This document shows positions 2,612 to 41,929 of a DNA stretch of 64,000 bases, in pieces. Each line of letters opens with the position of its first letter. The stretch's first letter is position 1. This DNA is from Trichormus variabilis 0441 (GTDB taxonomy: Bacteria; Cyanobacteriota; Cyanobacteriia; Cyanobacteriales; Nostocaceae): NCBI RefSeq assembly GCF_009856605.1, contig NZ_CP047242.1:2486001-2550000 (forward strand), given 5' to 3'. A program made the position numbers and the translations under genes. The notes beneath the pieces are model-generated. The model searched no databases. It was not told where the DNA came from and saw only the letters and a program-made list of their open reading frames with translations.

Positions 2612-2728
2612 GACTAAATAGTTGTAATGTAGAGAAGAAGCAGGGGAAATTCAGAGTTGTGGATTTCCCCTTTTCTGTAATTTAAGATTGCATAATAGTG
2701 TCAATATTTGTTTGCTGGGATTGTTTTA

Positions 2729-2864
2729 ACGTGAGTCCGATAAATTCGGAAGAACCCCTCTCCATAGCTTGCTTCCCGCAGGGTACCTCTCCCCGACGCG
2801 GGGAGAGGCTTAAAACCCTGATTATTTGGTACTCAGTTATAGATTTTCAGCCCCTTCCCTTGTA
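2729..2864 (+). mobile_element. Left part of a MITE split by the composite transposon
   Basis: The element begins ACGTGA at 2729 and is preceded by TGTTTTA (2722-2728). The sequence matches, in reverse complement, the intact MITE at 41668-41821. It stops at TTGTA (2860-2864) where the IS begins. The missing right part resumes after the second IS and runs to TCACGT at 10575, followed by a second TGTTTTA (10576-10582). The two halves therefore form one MITE with a 7-bp target duplication, interrupted by the 7.7-kb unit. Confidence 0.8.
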
Positions 2865-4682
2865 GGATACTGTTGGCGAATTGATAGAGGGCAAAACCAA
2901 TCATCACAAAATAGAAAATCAGGAATACTATGAGGCAGTGGGAGCAATTCGAGCAAAGTGAGAAACGCGAGTCTGACTGCGTGGGACATGTTGCCACCAA
3001 TCCCACATCCGACTGAAGTTGATAGCAGCAGCAGTAATGACATGCTGCAAGAGAGTTTTGGCAAGACCAATGTAGCGACAACGGCGTAATTGGTAGCGAC
3101 CAGTAGCTTGGGAAATCAAGCCTTCAACGCCAGCACGTTGGTGATAAATTTGTTGAAAAGATTCAGTTTTTTGGCGAATGCGAGCATCATGTAATGCAAG
3201 ATGTAGTTCCTGTGGTTTGAGGGTCAGAAGACGCGGTAGTTTTTTGGAGCGAGTGCATTTTGAGCGACTTGAACAAAGCGAACAATCGGATTTGTCAAAT
3301 TGTATTTTGACTACTGGATTGTCATGGCTATCGACAGTTGTACGCCAGGACTTACTTTGTTTACCCATTGGGCAATCAACACGCATCAAATCCCAATGAA
3401 TAGTGAAGCAATTTTGCTCAAAGCCGGATTGTGCTGTTGCTTGCCAACTAGTTCCGGGGGGAACTTTTCCTACTAAATCAACATGAAAATGGGATTGACT
3501 ATCGACTAAGTTTTGAGCATTGACATAGCCAGTATCGACAACATGTTCTTGTGGCAAAAGATTGTTCTGGTTTAAACGAGAATGAATTACTGGTGTCATC
3601 TCAACATCCGCACTTGTGGCCACGGACGTTTCCACATTGATAATTAAGTTTGGCAGTATGGGGTGACAAATTTCTGTCAGATGCAGATTATAACCAGTCC
3701 AGTTGATTTCTCGCTTGCTGGAATTGCGTGCATCAACATCGTAAGGAGATTCAATCTGTAGTCTATTTGGTGGTAAGTTATCTTGTTCTCGCCAATAGAC
3801 TTGTTGCAATTGAATATAGTATTGTTGCACCCAAACTATACGTAATGTTTCCACTGATGGAATCTGCCACAGCCAATTACAAGTTGAGTCTGCATACAAA
3901 GCGGATAGCAAATGATGACCATCCTCACCAATTTTTCGCCTCAATTTCTCACGTTCGGCTTTTGATTTGGGCAAGCGGTATTGCTCAAATCTCAGGGAGT
4001 AACGTTCAAACCAATCAACGTCAACTCTCGATTTGAGCCAATCAGGGGCAAAATAAGCCAAGTCATTTAAGGTATGACGTAAAGTTTCTCCCACTAATTC
4101 CAAACGATTTAACTGTCGTACTGCGGCTAATACGTGAGTTGAATCAGTTCTGACACGGCCGCGATTTTTGAGCCAACCTAGTTCTTGGAAACGAGCTAGC
4201 ATTTGGTTGAGTAACTCTCGCTCTCGTCCTGCTTTGATTAATCGCTGACGAAATTCTGAAAGTACTGAATAATCAAACCCTGGGTCATTTAATTCCAACG
4301 ATAGTGCGTATTTCCAATCAATATGACCCCTCACTGCATCCGCCGCTTGTCTATCCGTTAAACCTTCGATAAATTGCATTACTGTCACTAATGCCAGTTG
4401 TCCTGCTGATATTCCACTTTGACCACAATCTGCGCGGTAAAGTTTGACAAAATCCTCATCCTTATATAACACTCCTATTTCATCCCGCATCTTCATATAT
4501 ATGTTCCCTTTGGGAAATGAATTCCGGGCTACTTGCGCTGTTGTTTCAGGAATCTGCGACATATCACGCGGGTGCAGGGTCATAATCTTTGTAGATGCTA
4601 CGCTCAATATACTTATTCTCTTTTTTCCACTGTTCCAAACTCTTGAGGGGCTTAACCCTTCAATAATTCGCCAACAGTATCC
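2865..4682 (-). mobile_element. IS1182-type insertion sequence, copy 1
   Basis: This 1818-bp element has ends GGATACTGTTGGCGAATT (2865-2882) and its reverse complement at 4665-4682, an 18-bp perfect terminal inverted repeat that extends imperfectly further inward. It carries one transposase gene on the minus strand. Copy 2 at 8717 is practically identical inside, but its transposase-side end differs. The inner flank is GACGA, which does not match the outer TTGTA, so this copy lacks its own target duplication. Confidence 0.85.
2928..4583 (-). CDS. IS1182-family transposase, copy 1
   Basis: This 551-residue protein starts at MTLHPRDMSQIP (ATG at 4583). The frame stays open upstream through the IS end, but that extension is read from the terminal hairpin and outside sequence and is not expected to be coding. 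The protein has the N-terminal DUF772-like region (RADCGQSGISAGQLALVTVM, then a segment with DRQAADAVRGHIDWKYAL) and the VRTDSTHVLAAVR motif that supplies the first catalytic aspartate of the DDE domain. The later part has VVDTGYVNAQ, a CSLCSSRSKCTR cysteine motif and the C-terminal HQRAGVEGLISQATGRYQLRR motif with the catalytic glutamate. It is identical in translation to copy 2, so both are probably functional and recently duplicated. Confidence 0.9.
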   Translation of the reverse strand: MTLHPRDMSQIPETTAQVARNSFPKGNIYMKMRDEIGVLYKDEDFVKLYRADCGQSGISAGQLALVTVMQFIEGLTDRQAADAVRGHIDWKYALSLELNDPGFDYSVLSEFRQRLIKAGRERELLNQMLARFQELGWLKNRGRVRTDSTHVLAAVRQLNRLELVGETLRHTLNDLAYFAPDWLKSRVDVDWFERYSLRFEQYRLPKSKAEREKLRRKIGEDGHHLLSALYADSTCNWLWQIPSVETLRIVWVQQYYIQLQQVYWREQDNLPPNRLQIESPYDVDARNSSKREINWTGYNLHLTEICHPILPNLIINVETSVATSADVEMTPVIHSRLNQNNLLPQEHVVDTGYVNAQNLVDSQSHFHVDLVGKVPPGTSWQATAQSGFEQNCFTIHWDLMRVDCPMGKQSKSWRTTVDSHDNPVVKIQFDKSDCSLCSSRSKCTRSKKLPRLLTLKPQELHLALHDARIRQKTESFQQIYHQRAGVEGLISQATGRYQLRRCRYIGLAKTLLQHVITAAAINFSRMWDWWQHVPRSQTRVSHFARIAPTAS

Positions 4683-4730
4683 GACGAGGGGAGAGGTTTG
4701 GAGAGGGGTCATTTGTCATTGAGTTCCCAA

Positions 4731-7700
4731 TTACCTTGTCCGTAATAACTGCACAAAGGTATTACTCACCGTATTGTCTTTAGTATCTGCGGCGTATTGA
4801 ATCAACTTCTCCCGCAATTCCTTGGCTGCATCTATTGGCAGTAAGCTGGCTAAGAGGAAGTAAACACCACGAAAGCGGGGGTCACCCATTCTATCTACTA
4901 ATAGTCTTTCCGCTTCATCACTGTCGCCGAGAAAGTTCTGCACTAGGAAGAAGTCCATGATTTTATCGTGGCGGAAATACCATTCTTTCTTGGCTTCCCC
5001 TTTATCATCTTGCCATTGACGGCTCACTACCATTTTATATTTCTCATCTTCCAAAGACATGACGACTTGATAAAATTCATCGGCGGGTAAGGCTTGTTTG
5101 TCGTCGATACGCATTTGGTAGACTGCGGCGGAGAATTTTCTTAAGGGAAATTCTTGGTTCCATTCCTTCAGGTATTCAGCCGCTATTAGGTTGTATTGCT
5201 GTTCTTGCAGGCGGAATAAGTTGGGATATTGACCTTGTGATAACATCAGGGCTACCACGGTTAAATCCATTGGGTTGGAAAGAATGCGCCTGGCTGCTTT
5301 TAATTCTTCCTCTGGTTGCTGGGTAGTGAGGACTTCTTTTAAATAATTAATGCAGGCTTGTTCGTAATCAGCACCTTGAATTTTGGCATCCTTGGGCAGT
5401 CGCGGTTCACGGGAGAGCAAAAACTCTTGAATTTGGTTGGGTTCTAAGGGTTGCAAGTGGTAGGTTTTGGCGGTTGAGGGTGGTGTCCACTCTAGGGGCT
5501 GGGTAGTCATGATAATGTTGCCCCGGAAATAGCTTTCCACAAACTGGCAGATTTTAGCTCTGGTATCGGCTGTGACTTCGTTGAGTCCGTCGATGCAGAT
5601 ATCTATTGCACCACTGTAAATGAGGTTTTTCAGGAAGTCGGCATCTTGGGCTTGGCCGTGTAGCTTGTCTTGGATGGCTTCAATTACGCCTTTATGGCAT
5701 TTTTGGGCGGGGAGATAAACGACTATGCGCGGGGAGTTTTGCAACAGATGGCGGAGAAACATCGACTTACCTAAGCCGGAATCCCCTTCTAAGATAATTT
5801 GCCCTTTGATGCTGGGGAGGGCGGCGGTAACTGGGAAGATATCCCCTGTACCGGGAACTTTGACTCTGGATTCTGGGAAGTAGCCTTTGTCACTAAAGTT
5901 ATCTAAGCCGGCATCGGCTAGGAGGGAGGGTTTGAAGGGTTCAAATAATTTACGGCGGAAGGGGGGAAACCAGGTGAGGAGAAAGCCGACGTAACCCACC
6001 CCTAAGATGCGGCGTACCCAAGGGTTCCAGAAGAAGATGGCTTGAATTTGGGGGAATTTGGGGTAGGCGAAGATGAGGGCAAGCCAGAAGGTAGCGTGTG
6101 TGAGGATGGTAATTCTGGCGTTGAAAAACCACTGCCAACCCTTGAGGTTGACTATGACTGATTGCAGTGAATCAGCTTCGTTGTAGCCAGCTTTTTTGAG
6201 GTTGTTGTAGTGAGTTTCTAATAGGAGAATATCTTGCGGTTGCCAAGGGGTTTTTCTGGCGACTAGGGCGATTTGTTTTGCTAAATCATCACGTATTCGT
6301 GCAAATTCTTGGCTGGGTTGCCAAATGTCGCGGAATAGTTCTAGTGTTTTGACAGCTTGAGAGTGTTCCAGCTTATCAGGAGTTGTTTTTGGTCTGCCTA
6401 GCCATGTCAGCAGGGTTTTGACTTTTTCATGGCCGCCACCCAGGAAATAAGTCCAAAATCGCCAAAATTCATAATTATTCTGACCATAATCAAAACTTCC
6501 CTGATTTGGTTCGTAGATATAATTCAAAACTACGACAACCTCTTCTAATTTAAGTTGTCTGATTTTTCCCAATGCCGATGCCGCATTTCCACGAACGTCG
6601 GCGGGAACGTTTTCATCCTTGAGGAAATTGAGGATGTCAGGGACATACTTGACTGCGGCTTCTCCCAAGTTGCCCAATGCCAATGCTGCATTTCTACGAA
6701 AGGAGGCTTCCACCTTTTCATCCTTGAGAAAATTGAGGATGTCAGGGACATACTTAGCTGCGGCTTCTCCCATACTGCCCAATGCCTCTGCCGCATTTCT
6801 ACGAAAGATGGTGTCCACCTTTTCATCTTTGAGGATATTAGCGATGTCAGGGACATACTTAGCTGCGGTGTCTCCCAAGTTGCCCAATGCCGATACCGCA
6901 CCATAATAACGAACGTTGTTGTCCAACTTTTCATCCTTGAGGATATTAGCGATGTCAGGGACATACTTGGCTGCGGTGTCTCCCAAGTTGCCCAATGCCT
7001 TTACCGCATCTGAACGAACGATAGTGTCTACTTTTTCATCCTTGAGGAAATAGAGGATGTCAGGGACATACTTAGCTGCGGCTTCTCCCATACTGCCCAA
7101 TGCCTGTGCCGCACCTGAACGAACGGTGGCGGGAACCTTTTCATCCTTGAGGATATTAGCGATGTCAGGGACATACTTGGCTGCGGCTTCTCCCAAGTTG
7201 CCCAATGCCTGTGCCGCACTTCTACGAACATCGGCATCCACCTTTTCATCCTTGAGGATATTAGCGATATCAGGGACATACTTGGCTGCGGTGTTTCCCA
7301 ATTTGCCCAATGCCTCTGCCGCACTACCACGAACGTTGGTGGGAACCTTTTCATCTTTGAGGATATTAGCGATGTCAGGGACATACTTGGCTGCTGCGTT
7401 TCCCAAGTTGCCCAATGCCGATGCCGCAAATAAACGAACGATGGTGTCTACTTTTTCATCTTTGAGGATATTAGCGATGTCAGGGACATACTTGGCTGCT
7501 GCGTTCCCCAAGTTGCCCAATGCCTTTGCCGCACCTGAACGATCATAGTCGGGAACCTTTTGATCCTTGAGGAAATAGAGGATGTCAGGGACATACTTGG
7601 CTACGGTGTCTCCCAAGTTGCCCAATGCCTCTGCCGCACTACCACGAACGTTGGTGGGAACTTTTTCATCCTTGAGGATATTAGCGATGTCAGGGACATA

Positions 7701-8063
7701 CTTGGCTGCGGCTTCTCCCAAGTTGCCCAATGCCTCTGCCGCACTGCCACGAACGCCGGCGCTCACCTTTTCATCCTTGAGGATTTTGGCAGCTTTCTCG
7801 GCAATATCCTCTGGTTTCTTCACCAGGGATTTTAAATCTTTGAGATTATATTCACCTAATTGCTTGAAAGCATATCCCTTAACTTGGTCATGTCCATCAT
7901 CAAGGGCAGCTACTATGCCGTTAATCTGCCACGCTTCCGGCTGGGGCTTGGGCTTTTCTTGGGCGTTCACCCAAGGTAGGCAGAGTAGGAAAGAAAGGAT
8001 GAAGGCTAAAGAATAAAAAATGTAGCGAGAAGGCTGGCGATGATGGCGGAGAGTTGTGACCAT
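4731..8063 (-). CDS. Signal peptide, HEAT-repeat and NACHT-like STAND NTPase
   Basis: This 1110-residue protein is the only gene between the two IS copies. Residues 1-34 look like a signal peptide or anchor (basic start, hydrophobic core, VNA-Q cleavage-like site). Residues 94-479 are eleven HEAT-type repeats of 35 residues (core LKDEKV, VR, AA, ALGNLG, AAKYVPDI), followed by a partial twelfth. Residues 650-700 contain two hydrophobic stretches. The NTPase follows, with Walker A GDSGLGKS at 760-767 and Walker B IDICIDGLNE at 820-829, then the FRHDKIMDFFLVQNF segment typical of NACHT/STAND helical regions. Such NTPases often sense a signal through repeats and oligomerise; several bacterial members act in phage defence. 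Here the repeats are N-terminal, opposite to the usual order. The function and ligand are unknown. Confidence 0.85.
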   Translation of the reverse strand: MVTTLRHHRQPSRYIFYSLAFILSFLLCLPWVNAQEKPKPQPEAWQINGIVAALDDGHDQVKGYAFKQLGEYNLKDLKSLVKKPEDIAEKAAKILKDEKVSAGVRGSAAEALGNLGEAAAKYVPDIANILKDEKVPTNVRGSAAEALGNLGDTVAKYVPDILYFLKDQKVPDYDRSGAAKALGNLGNAAAKYVPDIANILKDEKVDTIVRLFAASALGNLGNAAAKYVPDIANILKDEKVPTNVRGSAAEALGKLGNTAAKYVPDIANILKDEKVDADVRRSAAQALGNLGEAAAKYVPDIANILKDEKVPATVRSGAAQALGSMGEAAAKYVPDILYFLKDEKVDTIVRSDAVKALGNLGDTAAKYVPDIANILKDEKLDNNVRYYGAVSALGNLGDTAAKYVPDIANILKDEKVDTIFRRNAAEALGSMGEAAAKYVPDILNFLKDEKVEASFRRNAALALGNLGEAAVKYVPDILNFLKDENVPADVRGNAASALGKIRQLKLEEVVVVLNYIYEPNQGSFDYGQNNYEFWRFWTYFLGGGHEKVKTLLTWLGRPKTTPDKLEHSQAVKTLELFRDIWQPSQEFARIRDDLAKQIALVARKTPWQPQDILLLETHYNNLKKAGYNEADSLQSVIVNLKGWQWFFNARITILTHATFWLALIFAYPKFPQIQAIFFWNPWVRRILGVGYVGFLLTWFPPFRRKLFEPFKPSLLADAGLDNFSDKGYFPESRVKVPGTGDIFPVTAALPSIKGQIILEGDSGLGKSMFLRHLLQNSPRIVVYLPAQKCHKGVIEAIQDKLHGQAQDADFLKNLIYSGAIDICIDGLNEVTADTRAKICQFVESYFRGNIIMTTQPLEWTPPSTAKTYHLQPLEPNQIQEFLLSREPRLPKDAKIQGADYEQACINYLKEVLTTQQPEEELKAARRILSNPMDLTVVALMLSQGQYPNLFRLQEQQYNLIAAEYLKEWNQEFPLRKFSAAVYQMRIDDKQALPADEFYQVVMSLEDEKYKMVVSRQWQDDKGEAKKEWYFRHDKIMDFFLVQNFLGDSDEAERLLVDRMGDPRFRGVYFLLASLLPIDAAKELREKLIQYAADTKDNTVSNTFVQLLRTR
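6627..7784 (-). repeat. 105-bp coding tandem repeat (HEAT units)
   Basis: Eleven consecutive units of 105 bp encode 35-residue HEAT repeats, and a partial twelfth continues to about 6560. DNA similarity is high: the blocks encoding ILKDEK and AAKYVPDIA recur almost unchanged, while the bases coding for the residues after KV differ between units. One unit (the ninth) has one extra codon. High DNA identity makes copy-number change by slippage or recombination likely. Confidence 0.85.
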
Positions 8064-8364
8064 GTTGGGGGCAAGGTGGCAGATTACACGCGCTTATGAG
8101 TAATATATCAGGCTTACTTAGAATAATTATGCCTACGGTGTGCATATATTTGAGTGCTAGGTGCAAAATGTGGTTTGATCCCCCTAAATCCACGCCACTT
8201 GCTACAAGTCGGCAAAGCCGCCCAACGCAGTGGCTCCCCTTAAAAAGGGGGACTTTAATTCTTGTTCCCCCCTTTTTTAAGGGGGGTTAGGGGGGATCAA
8301 AACGTTATGGTGCTAAGTTATTAGACTTGTGTATACACCGTAGCCTCTAACTACCCTACTCTTT
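8064..8364. repeat. Gap with a MITE-like inverted repeat
   Basis: Between the cargo gene and the tandem repeat lies an element at about 8174-8301 with ends GTTTGATCCCCCT and, inverted, AGGGGGGATCAAAAC. It encloses a GC-rich segment with a further pairing of CCCCTTAAAAAGGGGG type. It encodes no protein. Promoter elements for the leftward cargo gene are expected near 8064-8170 but none is convincing. Confidence 0.6.
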
Positions 8365-8640
8365 ACTCTCCCGCCAGTATTAAAAACTCACTCACGAGTA
8401 TCAAATACTCTCCCGCCAGTATTAAAGACTCACTCACGAGTATTAAACACTCTCTCGCCAGTATTAAAGACTCTCCTGCCAGTATCAAAGACTCGTTCAT
8501 GAGTATTAAAGACTCTCCCACCAGTGTCAAAGACTCGCTCACGAGTATCAAAGACTCTCCCACCAGTGTCAAAGACTCGCTCACGAGTATCAAAGACTCA
8601 TTAACGAGATGTAAATACTCGCTCACGAGTATTAAATATT
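8365..8640. repeat. 21-bp tandem repeat, about 13 copies
   Basis: A degenerate 21-bp unit of the form GACTCGCTCACGAGTATCAAA, alternating with a GACTCTCCCACCAGTGTCAAA type, is repeated about 13 times. Because 21 is a multiple of three, both strands contain long open frames that read as heptapeptide repeats (SLTSIKD on plus, ESLILVG-like on minus). The plus frame lacks an early start codon and neither strand shows a ribosome binding site, so it is listed as repeat DNA and not as a gene. Confidence 0.8.
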
Positions 8641-8720
8641 CCTCAACGTGATTTTATAAAGGCTCTCGCTTGTGTGCAGCAAGGCTTTGATCTCTCTCCA
8701 AACCTCTCTCCTACAAGGAT

Positions 8721-8769
8721 ACTGTTCCAAACTCTTGAGGGGTTAAGCCCCTCAAGAGTTTGGAACAGT
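8721..8769. repeat. Perfect hairpin at the left end of IS copy 2
   Basis: Two perfect 22-bp arms (8721-8742 and 8748-8769) flank the 5-base loop TTAAG. In copy 1 the corresponding outer arm instead reads GGCGAATTATTGAAGGG after ACTGTT and pairs poorly. The arm in copy 2 was therefore rewritten from the inner arm, probably by template switching or hairpin repair. Confidence 0.85.
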
Positions 8770-8814
8770 GGAAAAAAGAGAATAAGTATATTGAGCGTAG
8801 CATCTACAAAGATT

Positions 8815-10470
8815 ATGACCCTGCACCCGCGTGATATGTCGCAGATTCCTGAAACAACAGCGCAAGTAGCCCGGAATTCATTTCCCAAAGGGAACATATA
8901 TATGAAGATGCGGGATGAAATAGGAGTGTTATATAAGGATGAGGATTTTGTCAAACTTTACCGCGCAGATTGTGGTCAAAGTGGAATATCAGCAGGACAA
9001 CTGGCATTAGTGACAGTAATGCAATTTATCGAAGGTTTAACGGATAGACAAGCGGCGGATGCAGTGAGGGGTCATATTGATTGGAAATACGCACTATCGT
9101 TGGAATTAAATGACCCAGGGTTTGATTATTCAGTACTTTCAGAATTTCGTCAGCGATTAATCAAAGCAGGACGAGAGCGAGAGTTACTCAACCAAATGCT
9201 AGCTCGTTTCCAAGAACTAGGTTGGCTCAAAAATCGCGGCCGTGTCAGAACTGATTCAACTCACGTATTAGCCGCAGTACGACAGTTAAATCGTTTGGAA
9301 TTAGTGGGAGAAACTTTACGTCATACCTTAAATGACTTGGCTTATTTTGCCCCTGATTGGCTCAAATCGAGAGTTGACGTTGATTGGTTTGAACGTTACT
9401 CCCTGAGATTTGAGCAATACCGCTTGCCCAAATCAAAAGCCGAACGTGAGAAATTGAGGCGAAAAATTGGTGAGGATGGTCATCATTTGCTATCCGCTTT
9501 GTATGCAGACTCAACTTGTAATTGGCTGTGGCAGATTCCATCAGTGGAAACATTACGTATAGTTTGGGTGCAACAATACTATATTCAATTGCAACAAGTC
9601 TATTGGCGAGAACAAGATAACTTACCACCAAATAGACTACAGATTGAATCTCCTTACGATGTTGATGCACGCAATTCCAGCAAGCGAGAAATCAACTGGA
9701 CTGGTTATAATCTGCATCTGACAGAAATTTGTCACCCCATACTGCCAAACTTAATTATCAATGTGGAAACGTCCGTGGCCACAAGTGCGGATGTTGAGAT
9801 GACACCAGTAATTCATTCTCGTTTAAACCAGAACAATCTTTTGCCACAAGAACATGTTGTCGATACTGGCTATGTCAATGCTCAAAACTTAGTCGATAGT
9901 CAATCCCATTTTCATGTTGATTTAGTAGGAAAAGTTCCCCCCGGAACTAGTTGGCAAGCAACAGCACAATCCGGCTTTGAGCAAAATTGCTTCACTATTC
10001 ATTGGGATTTGATGCGTGTTGATTGCCCAATGGGTAAACAAAGTAAGTCCTGGCGTACAACTGTCGATAGCCATGACAATCCAGTAGTCAAAATACAATT
10101 TGACAAATCCGATTGTTCGCTTTGTTCAAGTCGCTCAAAATGCACTCGCTCCAAAAAACTACCGCGTCTTCTGACCCTCAAACCACAGGAACTACATCTT
10201 GCATTACATGATGCTCGCATTCGCCAAAAAACTGAATCTTTTCAACAAATTTATCACCAACGTGCTGGCGTTGAAGGCTTGATTTCCCAAGCTACTGGTC
10301 GCTACCAATTACGCCGTTGTCGCTACATTGGTCTTGCCAAAACTCTCTTGCAGCATGTCATTACTGCTGCTGCTATCAACTTCAGTCGGATGTGGGATTG
10401 GTGGCAACATGTCCCACGCAGTCAGACTCGCGTTTCTCACTTTGCTCGAATTGCTCCCACTGCCTCATAG
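8815..10470 (+). CDS. IS1182-family transposase, copy 2
   Basis: This 551-residue protein is identical in translation to the copy at 2928-4583 from MTLHPRDMSQIP onward, with the same DUF772-like N-terminus, DDE-type motifs and cysteine motif. ATG 8815 is chosen because it is shared by both copies; upstream codons lie in the terminal hairpin, where the two copies differ. The gene is intact, so this copy could act on either IS in trans. Whether copy 2 itself can still be mobilised is uncertain because its left terminal repeat is shortened. Confidence 0.9.
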   Translation: MTLHPRDMSQIPETTAQVARNSFPKGNIYMKMRDEIGVLYKDEDFVKLYRADCGQSGISAGQLALVTVMQFIEGLTDRQAADAVRGHIDWKYALSLELNDPGFDYSVLSEFRQRLIKAGRERELLNQMLARFQELGWLKNRGRVRTDSTHVLAAVRQLNRLELVGETLRHTLNDLAYFAPDWLKSRVDVDWFERYSLRFEQYRLPKSKAEREKLRRKIGEDGHHLLSALYADSTCNWLWQIPSVETLRIVWVQQYYIQLQQVYWREQDNLPPNRLQIESPYDVDARNSSKREINWTGYNLHLTEICHPILPNLIINVETSVATSADVEMTPVIHSRLNQNNLLPQEHVVDTGYVNAQNLVDSQSHFHVDLVGKVPPGTSWQATAQSGFEQNCFTIHWDLMRVDCPMGKQSKSWRTTVDSHDNPVVKIQFDKSDCSLCSSRSKCTRSKKLPRLLTLKPQELHLALHDARIRQKTESFQQIYHQRAGVEGLISQATGRYQLRRCRYIGLAKTLLQHVITAAAINFSRMWDWWQHVPRSQTRVSHFARIAPTAS

Positions 10471-10533
10471 TATTCCTGATTTTCTATTTTGTGATGATTG
10501 GTTTTGCCCTCTATCAATTCGCCAACAGTATCC

Positions 10534-10575
10534 TTGTAGTGAAGGGGTTGGGGTTAGGTTCCGTCGAATTCACGT
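10534..10575 (+). mobile_element. Right part of the split MITE
   Basis: The sequence after the second IS (TTGTA, then GAAGGGGTTGGGGTTAGG and TCCGTCGAATTCACGT) continues the MITE begun at 2729 and ends in TCACGT at 10575. It is followed by TGTTTTA (10576-10582), the second copy of the 7-bp target duplication. Confidence 0.8.
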
Positions 10576-10595
10576 TGTTTTAGGAGTAATTGCTG

Positions 10596-11165
10596 ATGTC
10601 GTTATCAACTCCAGTATTTGCCAACAAAACACTAGAAGAGTTTCTGAAATTACCAGAAACTAAACCCGCCAGTGAATATATTGACGGTAAAATCTACCAA
10701 AAACTGATGCCTCAAGGAGAACATAGCACCTTACAAAGTAGTTTAGTAACAGCTATTAATGAAATTGCTAAACCACAAAAATTAGCTTACGCGTTTCCTG
10801 AGTTACGCTGCACATTTTCGGGAAATTCTATAGTTCCAGATATTGCTGTCTTTGAATGGTCGCGTATTCCTTTACTTCCTAATGGCAGAATTGCCAATAA
10901 ATTTGAAATTTCCCCCGATTGGATTATTGAAATTCTTTCTCCAGAACAATCCCCTAATCGGGTTATCCGTAAAATAATGTTTTCTATGCAAAATGGTGCA
11001 AAGCTAGGTTGGTTTCTCGACCCTAATGATGAATCTATCATGGTTTTTCAACCCGATATATTGCCAGAAATCAAAGCAGGGAAAGAAATTTTACCTGTTA
11101 TGAGTGTATTGGCGAATTGGCAATTAACTGTAGAAGATATTTTTAGTTGTTTGAATTTTAGTTGA
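10596..11165 (+). CDS. Uma2-family (DUF820) putative endonuclease
   Basis: This 189-residue protein has the layout of the Uma2/DUF820 family, which is very abundant in cyanobacteria: an N-terminal YIDGKIYQKLMP segment with the conserved glutamate region, then the PD-(D/E)XK-like core SIVPDIAVFEW and the strand DWIIEILSPEQSPNRV, ending in a tryptophan-rich WFLDPNDESIMVFQP region. Family members have a restriction-endonuclease fold, but their targets and roles are mostly unknown. ATG 10596 is chosen over TTG 10590 because AGGAG at 10582-10586 is spaced well for it. The gene starts just outside the MITE and transposon and probably belongs to the original chromosome. Confidence 0.8.
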   Translation: MSLSTPVFANKTLEEFLKLPETKPASEYIDGKIYQKLMPQGEHSTLQSSLVTAINEIAKPQKLAYAFPELRCTFSGNSIVPDIAVFEWSRIPLLPNGRIANKFEISPDWIIEILSPEQSPNRVIRKIMFSMQNGAKLGWFLDPNDESIMVFQPDILPEIKAGKEILPVMSVLANWQLTVEDIFSCLNFS

Positions 11166-40987: not shown

Positions 40988-41589
40988 CATTAAAATTCAA
41001 AAACTAGGTGCAGACGATCGCGTTTTAATTAACAAAAATCCCTATCAGGGATTGAAACCAGAAAAAAGATAGAAGCCGATTTGCGGGAAGACGTTTTAAT
41101 TAACAAAAATCCCTATCAGGGATTGAAACCGCCTACGAGGGTACAGAGTTCGCCCCCATGAACGTTTTAATTAACAAAAATCCCTATCAGGGATTGAAAC
41201 ATCGCTTAATTGTTGCTGTACTAGTGATGCGGCTAGTTTTAATTAACAAAAATCCCTATCAGGGATTGAAACAGCGCCTCTGAGGTTAGCGCTTCTGAGG
41301 TTAGGTTTTAATTAACAAAAATCCCTATCAGGGATTGAAACCATTAAAATTCAAAAACTAGGTGCAGACGATCGCGTTTTAATTAACAAAAATCCCTATC
41401 AGGGATTGAAACCAGAAAAAAGATAGAAGCCGATTTGCGGGAAGACGTTTTAATTAACAAAAATCCCTATCAGGGATTGAAACCGCCTACGAGGGTACAG
41501 AGTTCGCCCCCATGAACGTTTTAATTAACAAAAATCCCTATCAGGGATTGAAACATCGCTTAATTGTTGCTGTACTAGTGATGCGGCTA
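40988..41589 (+). repeat. Duplicated spacer block inside the CRISPR array
   Basis: The spacers after repeats 28 to 31 (40988-41235) recur unchanged after repeats 33 to 36 (41342-41589), shifted by 354 bp. The unit is five spacer-repeat pairs; the fifth spacer (41273-41304) is present once. This is a tandem duplication through the repeats and not independent acquisition. Confidence 0.95.
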
Positions 41590-41667
41590 GTTTTAATTAA
41601 CAAAAATCCCTATCAGGGATTGAAATGGCGCAGCTAGGACACTTGATTCTTCCATTGCCTTGTTTTA

Positions 41668-41821
41668 GTGTTAGTTCGACGAAACCTAACCCCAACCCCT
41701 TCCCTACAAGGGAAGGGGCTAAAAATCCACAACCAAGTACCAAATAATCAGGGTTTTAAGCCTCTCCCCGCGTCGGGGAGAGGTTTGGAGAGGGGTTATT
41801 CCGAATTTATCAAACCCACGT
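41668..41821 (-). mobile_element. MITE inserted in the terminal CRISPR repeat
   Basis: This 154-bp non-coding element is flanked by the 7-bp direct repeat TGTTTTA (41661-41667 and 41822-41828). The right copy is the start of the degenerate terminal repeat, and the left copy follows a 35-bp spacer (41627-41661) by one base. The interior contains GCCTCTCCCCGCGTCGGGGAGAG and CTTCCCTACAAGGGAAG hairpins. It is related, inverted, to the split MITE at 2729/10575, which has the same TGTTTTA target. Confidence 0.85.
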
Positions 41822-41929
41822 TGTTTTAACTAACAAAAATCCCTATCAGGGACTGAACAAACTCTTAATATCACCTGTACCTACAGCCGCTTTACATAGA
41901 GTTTTAAAAAACAAACCCCGACTAATTAT

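Follow-up and report, generated by a model that had tools for sequence, protein, structure and literature searches.

Composite transposons such as Tn10 and Tn5 are built from two inverted insertion sequences (IS) whose outer ends are used together, with a short target duplication at the outer borders. The subject here is a unit of comparable build at positions 2860-10538 of the window (the whole analyzed stretch of 64,000 nucleotides, positions 2,486,001 to 2,550,000 of contig NZ_CP047242.1 of the cyanobacterium Trichormus variabilis 0441), in which two inverted IS1182-family elements enclose a single gene for a protein with HEAT repeats and a P-loop NTPase. According to excerpts of the reports on IS1272 (PMC4923244, PMC5678879), this element deletes or replaces a hairpin with blunt ends and makes no duplication. 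Loop duplication is proposed, in the excerpted part of the second report, as one possible pathway of structure-dependent transposition, and IS1272 follows another (PMC5678879). One paper from the literature on cyanobacterial composite transposons, PMC2246112, makes no mention of palindromes, hairpin or IS1182, and we found no literature joining composite transposon, defense system and NACHT.

Our main finding is that the IS-gene-IS unit very probably moved as a composite transposon, from C1:~1.7635 Mb into a miniature inverted-repeat transposable element (MITE) at C1:2.489 Mb. Coordinates are window positions unless C1 (the strain's own chromosome), an L number (locus) or a C-number in the relative G003 (contig) is given.

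The composite unit and its unmatched flanks

The unit measures 7.67 kb and runs from IS c1 (2865-4682, +) through the HEAT-NTPase gene (4731-8063, -) to IS c2 (8717-10533, -). Both IS copies have their L end (GGATACTGTTGGCGAATTG...) turned outward, and TTGTA borders the unit at 2860-2864 and 10534-10538. The direct flanks are TTGTA and GACGA for c1, and TACAA and TTGTA for c2. The features are, in order:

2721..2729, no strand: TTGTTTTAA, 9-bp target duplication of the MITE itself, left copy
2730..2859, - strand: left half of the target MITE, with stem ccccttccc at its end
2860..2864, + strand: TTGTA, 5-bp palindrome-loop duplication that the unit produced, left copy
2865..4682, + strand: IS copy c1, 1818 bp, L end outward; transposase open reading frame (ORF) 2928-4712 (-)
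4683..4687, + strand: GACGA, right half of the D1 donor-site loop duplication; its left counterpart is now at the lone IS at C1:1763550
4731..8063, - strand: cargo gene, 1110 amino acids (aa); signal-peptide-like start, HEAT array, hydrophobic segments at about 646-700, NACHT-like P-loop NTPase
8323..8683, no strand: 21-bp tandem repeat 5' of the cargo gene, with which it traveled; the G003 donor locus has a related stretch
8712..8716, + strand: TACAA, loop of donor hairpin H1; the H1 left stem is immediately before it
8717..10533, - strand: IS copy c2, 1817 bp, with the L end outward and the R terminus, on the inner side, changed to a perfect palindrome; transposase ORF 8674-10470 (+)
10534..10538, + strand: TTGTA, loop duplication that the unit produced, right copy
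10539..10574, - strand: right half of the target MITE, stem gtgaagggg with one mismatch
10575..10583, no strand: TTGTTTTAG, target duplication of the MITE itself, right copy

A previous annotation made without database searches (the sequence-only reading) had recognized two near-identical inverted IS around one large gene. Its coordinates are right, and the arms (2848-4668 and 8730-10550) are 100% complementary across 1821 nt. It was also correct that TTGTA is present on both outer borders and that removal of the unit together with one TTGTA makes the MITE whole again. Its IS1182-type assignment is confirmed by the NCBIfam model NF033551 transpos_IS1182, which the c2 transposase matches with 304.4 bits against a cutoff of 270. 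The cargo is thus flanked by two copies of the same IS with identical L ends outward, as in a composite transposon.

The strain's own genome (7.10 Mb, five contigs) contains 17 copies of this IS, 16 uninterrupted and one split into two pieces, which are 100% identical over the matched stretches. We compared the flanks of all 17 copies (34 flanks), scoring palindrome stems with one mismatch allowed. The copies lie within 5-nt palindrome loops or between the halves of such palindromes, and the flanks of 14 of them pair over 9-12 bases around a 5-nt loop, so the usual target is palindromic, as reported for some members of the IS1182 family. Mismatched flanks occur in only three copies, namely c1 (6 paired bases), c2 (1) and the lone copy L019 at C1:1763550 (6). 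An exact direct duplication of the loop is found in nine of the 17. The observation of the sequence-only reading that neither IS of the unit has its own direct duplication is therefore literally true but proves little alone, since six of the 15 other copies, among them the donor scar L019 discussed below, also lack an exact one (the other nine have it). The unit is best marked by its unmatched stems (6 and 1 pairs), given the 9-12 pairs found in 14 other copies.

Donor, target and the move between them

The flanks of the three odd copies re-pair at three sites. The left flank of the lone IS and the inner flank of c1 restore the downstream donor site, GACGA/GACGA (D1), the c2 inner flank, combined with the flank to the right of the lone IS, restores two upstream donor hairpins (D2), and the outer flanks of c1 and c2 restore the target MITE, TTGTA/TTGTA (M). 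Thus, c1, c2 and the scar account for one another. GACGA occurs at only two of the 34 flanks, the inner flank of c1 and the left flank of L019, and these two pair over a 12-base stem. The donor is at C1:1,763,550, on the same chromosome and about 0.73 Mb from the target, where the lone IS now remains in the arrangement GACGA-IS-TACAA, with its L end against GACGA and its R end against the TACAA of the second hairpin.

Comparison with the relative G003 is informative here; it is the closest of five relatives by ThiF protein (99% vs 96-97%). The gene immediately to the right of the lone IS at C1:1763550 is g8 (158 aa; no PADLOC or NCBIfam match), which lies upstream of the HEAT-NTPase gene on the same strand in 32 of 93 relatives' loci sampled (15 + 78), 30 of them distinct by g8 sequence. 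In G003, g8 and the DNA to its right align to the strain's own locus from L044 10368 onward, with 98.5% identity over 667 bases (10368-11034) and 90-95% in longer pieces beyond. The 5' part of the cargo gene and its upstream repeats are directly before this g8 region, and the 3' end of the gene is on a second contig that runs on into the strain's own donor-left DNA. The gene of G003 thus occupies the place of the lone IS of strain 0441. Both upstream hairpins are intact in G003, CCTCTCTCT-TACAA-GGAGAGAGG and CCCCTTCCC-TACAA-GGGAAGGGG, with 32 bases between the loops; the left half of the first, with its TACAA, now forms the inner flank of c2, and TACAA with the right half of the second forms the right flank of the lone IS. 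Donor locus and scar together thus supply the donor of the composite transposon. No close copy of the IS was among the matches listed for G003 (four IS-bearing loci as queries, 40 candidates scored for each), the only match being one of 67% over about 300 bases, so the events are probably later than the split from G003.

We also note that the G003 relative of the cargo gene is interrupted near residue 1020, where two contigs end (C130:1-105 and C2:1-116), probably by another repeat or IS. A gene for a hybrid histidine kinase-like protein of 1184 aa (L044 4576-8130, C1:1759575-1763129) separates the scar IS from the region in common with G003, and is absent from the corresponding place in that relative.

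The target is the TTGTA loop of one MITE at C1:2.489 Mb, whose halves (2730-2859 and 10539-10574) now stand on either side of the unit. The MITE bears its own 9-bp duplication (2721-2729 and 10575-10583), the two copies of which differ by one mismatch, and TTGTA/TTGTA lies within this one MITE, so there was a single target. The MITE has at least 52 matches in the genome, part of them partial (40 of 147 first-look candidates scored), and the second MITE that had been pointed out at 41668 exists and is a member of this family. The DNA of the two target flanks (1-2674 and 12578 onward) is separated by about 228 bp in G003, and this interval contains no cargo gene, MITE, IS, Uma2 or MFS gene. The cargo gene is absent around ThiF in all five relatives (G001, G002, G003, G004 and G008; stretches of 14-19 kb); the G008 stretch has two short matches (69 and 78 bases), only to the repeats 5' of the cargo gene. 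A copy of the gene at the target place without the IS, which would have contradicted the sequence-only reading, is thus found in none of the five. The empty MITE that it proposed to look for in a relative was not found, because the MITE itself is missing at this place from all five; its own 9-bp duplication stands in for an empty-site relative. Its central structural claim, entry of the unit as one piece, holds, with donor and scar located in the same chromosome and no gene at the target in any of the five relatives.

The other MITE, at 41668, sits in a CRISPR-like (clustered regularly interspaced short palindromic repeats) array at 41400-41870 (repeat GTTTTAATTAACAAAAATCCCTATCAGGGATTGAAAC), with a degenerate repeat after the MITE. 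It was apparently inserted into this array or at its end, and TTGTTTTA is present on both sides.

We propose that a resident IS1182-family element, with 5-nt palindrome loops as its targets, would have landed on both sides of the HEAT-NTPase gene at C1:~1.7635 Mb, the two copies being inverted and having both L ends outward. These two L ends would then have served as the ends of a composite transposon, which carried the 7.67-kb IS-gene-IS segment into the TTGTA loop of the MITE and duplicated TTGTA. The donor copy of the gene would have been lost, with one IS (GACGA-IS-TACAA) remaining as a scar, either through recombination with a further IS in the neighboring hairpin or through an IS-adjacent deletion into the loop of that hairpin. 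We infer the action of transposase on the two L ends, and likewise the order of events, in which donor loss may have come before, during or after the move, and the way in which the donor collapsed.

The same flank pairs would also explain the flanks of the scar, c1 and c2 if recombination alone had been at work, with the gene leaving as a circle between two direct IS copies (and the scar staying behind), the circle entering a single IS in the MITE, and the right IS flipping later; the inverted repeats at the IS ends and the palindrome arms could permit such a flip. However, both outer ends are L, so that an extra, precise inversion of c2 would be required. A resident IS has one L and one R end and the unit has two L ends, which favors composite transposition; a composite move on two L ends would lead directly, in a single step, to the observed state. 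We thus consider recombination alone unlikely. Without the flip, pure recombination among single IS copies is ruled out. The pairs expected from it are c1-left with c2-inner, over a stem of 2, and c2-left with scar-right, over a stem of 15 and with a common loop, the latter attractive at first; they contradict the order in G003, where the target flanks are adjacent and the upstream flank of the gene is beside g8. The recent multiplication of the IS (17 copies of the identity given above) makes nearby insertions possible, and two of them could in principle have landed independently around a gene that was always at the target place. The stems and loops of c1 and c2 are unmatched across either IS, the gene is absent at ThiF in all five relatives, and G003, the closest relative compared, has the gene at the donor place, which already contradicts this history; the unmatched stems and the layout in the relatives rule it out, and we give it practically no chance.

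Several points weigh against the composite-transposon move that we favor. To account for the scar, either a further IS in the second hairpin or a deletion next to the IS is needed, and neither is directly seen. Stem pairing is not unique, as c2-left and L019-right pair over 15 bases with a common TACAA and c1-inner and c2-inner over 18, and the re-pairing is consequently supported less by the stems than by synteny and the MITE duplication. The D1 hairpin is not present in G003, no strain was found with a pre-move donor still bearing the IS copies, and no empty MITE was found in the five relatives at the target place. G003 is a draft of about 160 contigs, from whose assembly an IS may be absent, and its donor locus falls on two contigs whose ends interrupt the gene, which makes the 3' adjacency dependent on these two ends. 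Finally, among the 71 loci whose upstream DNA reaches at least 1.5 kb (repeat records kept), g8 is present in 30 and missing from 41, and its position beside the gene is therefore common but not universal.

Loop duplication and inverted loop copies

Judged from its flanks, this IS duplicates the palindrome loop and retains the stems. In four copies (L009, L011, L014 and L020) the loop is opposite in orientation on the two sides, e.g. TTGTA-IS-TACAA, and a fifth, L023, has flanks TTGCA and TACAA, one base short of an inverted loop. Three of the four map to one place in G003. The flanks of L011 (C1:4571600) abut on G003 C131 and those of L009 (C1:5892400) are about 120 bp apart on G003 C13, the MITE being absent from both places; at the place of L020 (C1:1587500; own copy TACAA-IS-TTGTA), G003 C1 has an intact hairpin with loop TTGTA, where one flank runs on into 42 bases of the other side, the remainder of which is without match. 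These single sites imply that one loop copy was turned over in place or was inserted that way. Recombination between distant copies, which we considered as a source of the inverted loops, is ruled out for L009 and L011 by the closeness of their flanks in G003, and probably for L020. The two flanks of L014 (C1:4992200-4996100) are on different G003 contigs, making it a candidate rearrangement breakpoint.

Stem (9), loop (5) and IS end (18) together make an inverted repeat in which the loop is the mismatch, and correction of one arm would therefore yield the inverted loop exactly. This suggests that the loop may be inverted by such arm correction or, alternatively, by joining to the opposite loop of a cruciform. 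At the inner R end of c2, the terminal repeat matches at 10 of 18 bases and then copies the opposite arm of a nearby small hairpin, which is the pattern that template switching between palindrome arms would leave; template switching homogenizes arms and inverts spacers, as described in an excerpt of PMC8604942. The c2 inner end (8717-8770) is now a perfect palindrome, with its terminal repeat reduced from 18 to 10 matching bases, and c2 alone may have lost the ability to transpose after this change. A broader scheme is that this branch of the IS1182 family enters the single-stranded loop of an extruded palindrome and duplicates the loop only, that one loop copy flips later or at joining to give a perfect inverted repeat, and that palindromic MITEs would thereby be reusable docking loops for carrying host genes around the chromosome; we offer it tentatively, as possible but somewhat short of probable. 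No published report of inverted loop duplications of IS1182 elements was found among the literature matches listed.

The cargo gene and comparison with known systems

The cargo protein (1110 aa) has a signal-peptide-like N terminus, with its strongest hydrophobic window from residue 14, followed by HEAT repeats up to about residue 500, hydrophobic segments at about 646-700 and a C-terminal P-loop NTPase half. It is thus expected, from these predicted features, to sit in the inner membrane, with its NTPase in the cytoplasm and its HEAT part on the other side. Across 46 aligned sequences, which include one Bacteroidia and one Rhizobiaceae bin, G760, S762, G763, G765 and K766 of the P-loop GDSGLGKS are invariant and DGLNE (825-829) is wholly so, giving a P-loop and an acidic Walker B motif. 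The label HEAT-NACHT of the sequence-only reading is correct as to the HEAT array and the P-loop NTPase motifs; the Pfam NACHT score of 18.2 bits is below the gathering cutoff of 26.7, and we therefore call the protein NACHT-like. Sequence and profile searches of solved structures gave only weak matches to unrelated proteins, and the sequence-profile search found no chain named NACHT at E<=1. The full-length predicted model has a mean predicted local distance difference test (pLDDT) score of 78.2 and a predicted template modeling (pTM) score of 0.55, with middling confidence in the NTPase half.

Identity in the NTPase half is 50-90% over 31 aligned relatives (74-90% with three exceptions) and 81-100% in the best 120 of 879 homologs, a list chosen for similarity. 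In G003 the cargo relative has 70-72% protein identity, with neighbors at about 90-98% DNA identity; this suggested diversifying selection on the cargo, which we set aside given the identities of the NTPase half. The full-length gene occurs once in the strain's own genome, and the other match listed is 45% identical over residues 83-529 only.

Neighboring genes were scanned for up to two genes per side at 35 of the 41 loci without g8, which gave 122 of 128 listed neighbors; loci with g8 were left out, and of the six loci dropped, three appeared to be second records of genomes already in the set. At E<=1e-10 there was no PADLOC family with matches to two or more of the 122 neighbors, and no defense island is recognizable around these loci. 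Fifteen PADLOC families, including mad2, mad3, mad8 and PtuB, matched one neighbor each. Recurrent Pfam families (25 of 102 shown) include DUF4351 (7), threonyl-tRNA synthetase domains (6), glycyl-tRNA synthetase beta (3) and DUF2887 (3), and one scanned neighbor is an ISL3-type transposase. In G002, G005 and G006 the cargo gene and g8 are flanked by genes that we take, from their sequences, to be hemA- and pntAB-like.

The sequence-only reading had suggested a mobile defense or surveillance gene. A gene of this kind traveling between genomes on the unit would fit the combination of a P-loop NTPase with a repeat array, its patchy occurrence among relatives, the weak similarity of its HEAT part to HEAT-bearing defense models, the single-neighbor matches of mad2, mad3, mad8 and PtuB, and the 41 of 71 loci away from g8, which place the gene family in several locations. 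However, the move lay within one chromosome, the gene is present there only once at full length, the neighbors in G002, G005 and G006 resemble housekeeping genes, no PADLOC family recurs among the neighbors, the NTPase half is conserved, and the EruA model scores 36.7 bits against a cutoff of 1000. Taken with the C-terminal position of the NTPase, these points leave the functional claim not supported, in contrast to the structural one, whose donor is now known, and make a traveling defense gene very unlikely; a defense role as such may exist but is not indicated by gene context. The case is a caution against reading a single NTPase between two IS as a mobile defense gene.

Tested antiviral STAND proteins are tripartite, with the STAND domain in the middle, according to an excerpt of PMC10907252. 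The cargo protein resembles the bacterial NACHT and antiviral STAND proteins, so far as excerpts of PMC10907252 and PMC12169576 describe them, in its NACHT-like P-loop NTPase, its DGLNE motif and the repeat domain joined to them. Unlike the antiviral STAND proteins (PMC10907252), it has its NTPase at the C terminus and its HEAT array at the N terminus, and it differs from bacterial NACHT/STAND proteins also in its signal-peptide-like start, its hydrophobic segments, its Pfam NACHT score under the cutoff and its surroundings, in which no defense neighborhood was seen.

The IS itself is like IS1272, TnSha1 and TnSha2 of staphylococci, as presented in the excerpts of PMC4923244 and PMC5678879, in having an IS1182-family transposase and a palindrome target with little sequence demand, and the present unit is like TnSha1 and TnSha2 in that a chromosomal gene was mobilized as a composite element. 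It differs from the stem-loop replacement of IS1272 in that stems are kept in 14 of the 17 copies and the 5-nt loop is duplicated exactly in nine. TnSha1 has one IS, whereas the present unit has two inverted ones with L ends outward, and its cargo, unlike those of TnSha1 and TnSha2, is no resistance gene. The copies described here are natural examples of the loop duplication that is drawn as a model pathway in PMC5678879.

Our analysis points to a palindrome-targeting IS1182 element that shifted a host gene within a chromosome, and its record of one composite-transposon move is unusually complete, with donor, scar, cargo, target and duplications in one genome and a relative that keeps the earlier state. 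Like Tn10 and Tn5, the unit has two inverted IS, paired outer ends and a short target duplication at its outer borders; unlike them, it moved one host gene inside its own chromosome, left a donor scar and is built from another IS family. It thus belongs to a known kind of element, the composite transposon, with a history that is unusually well preserved.

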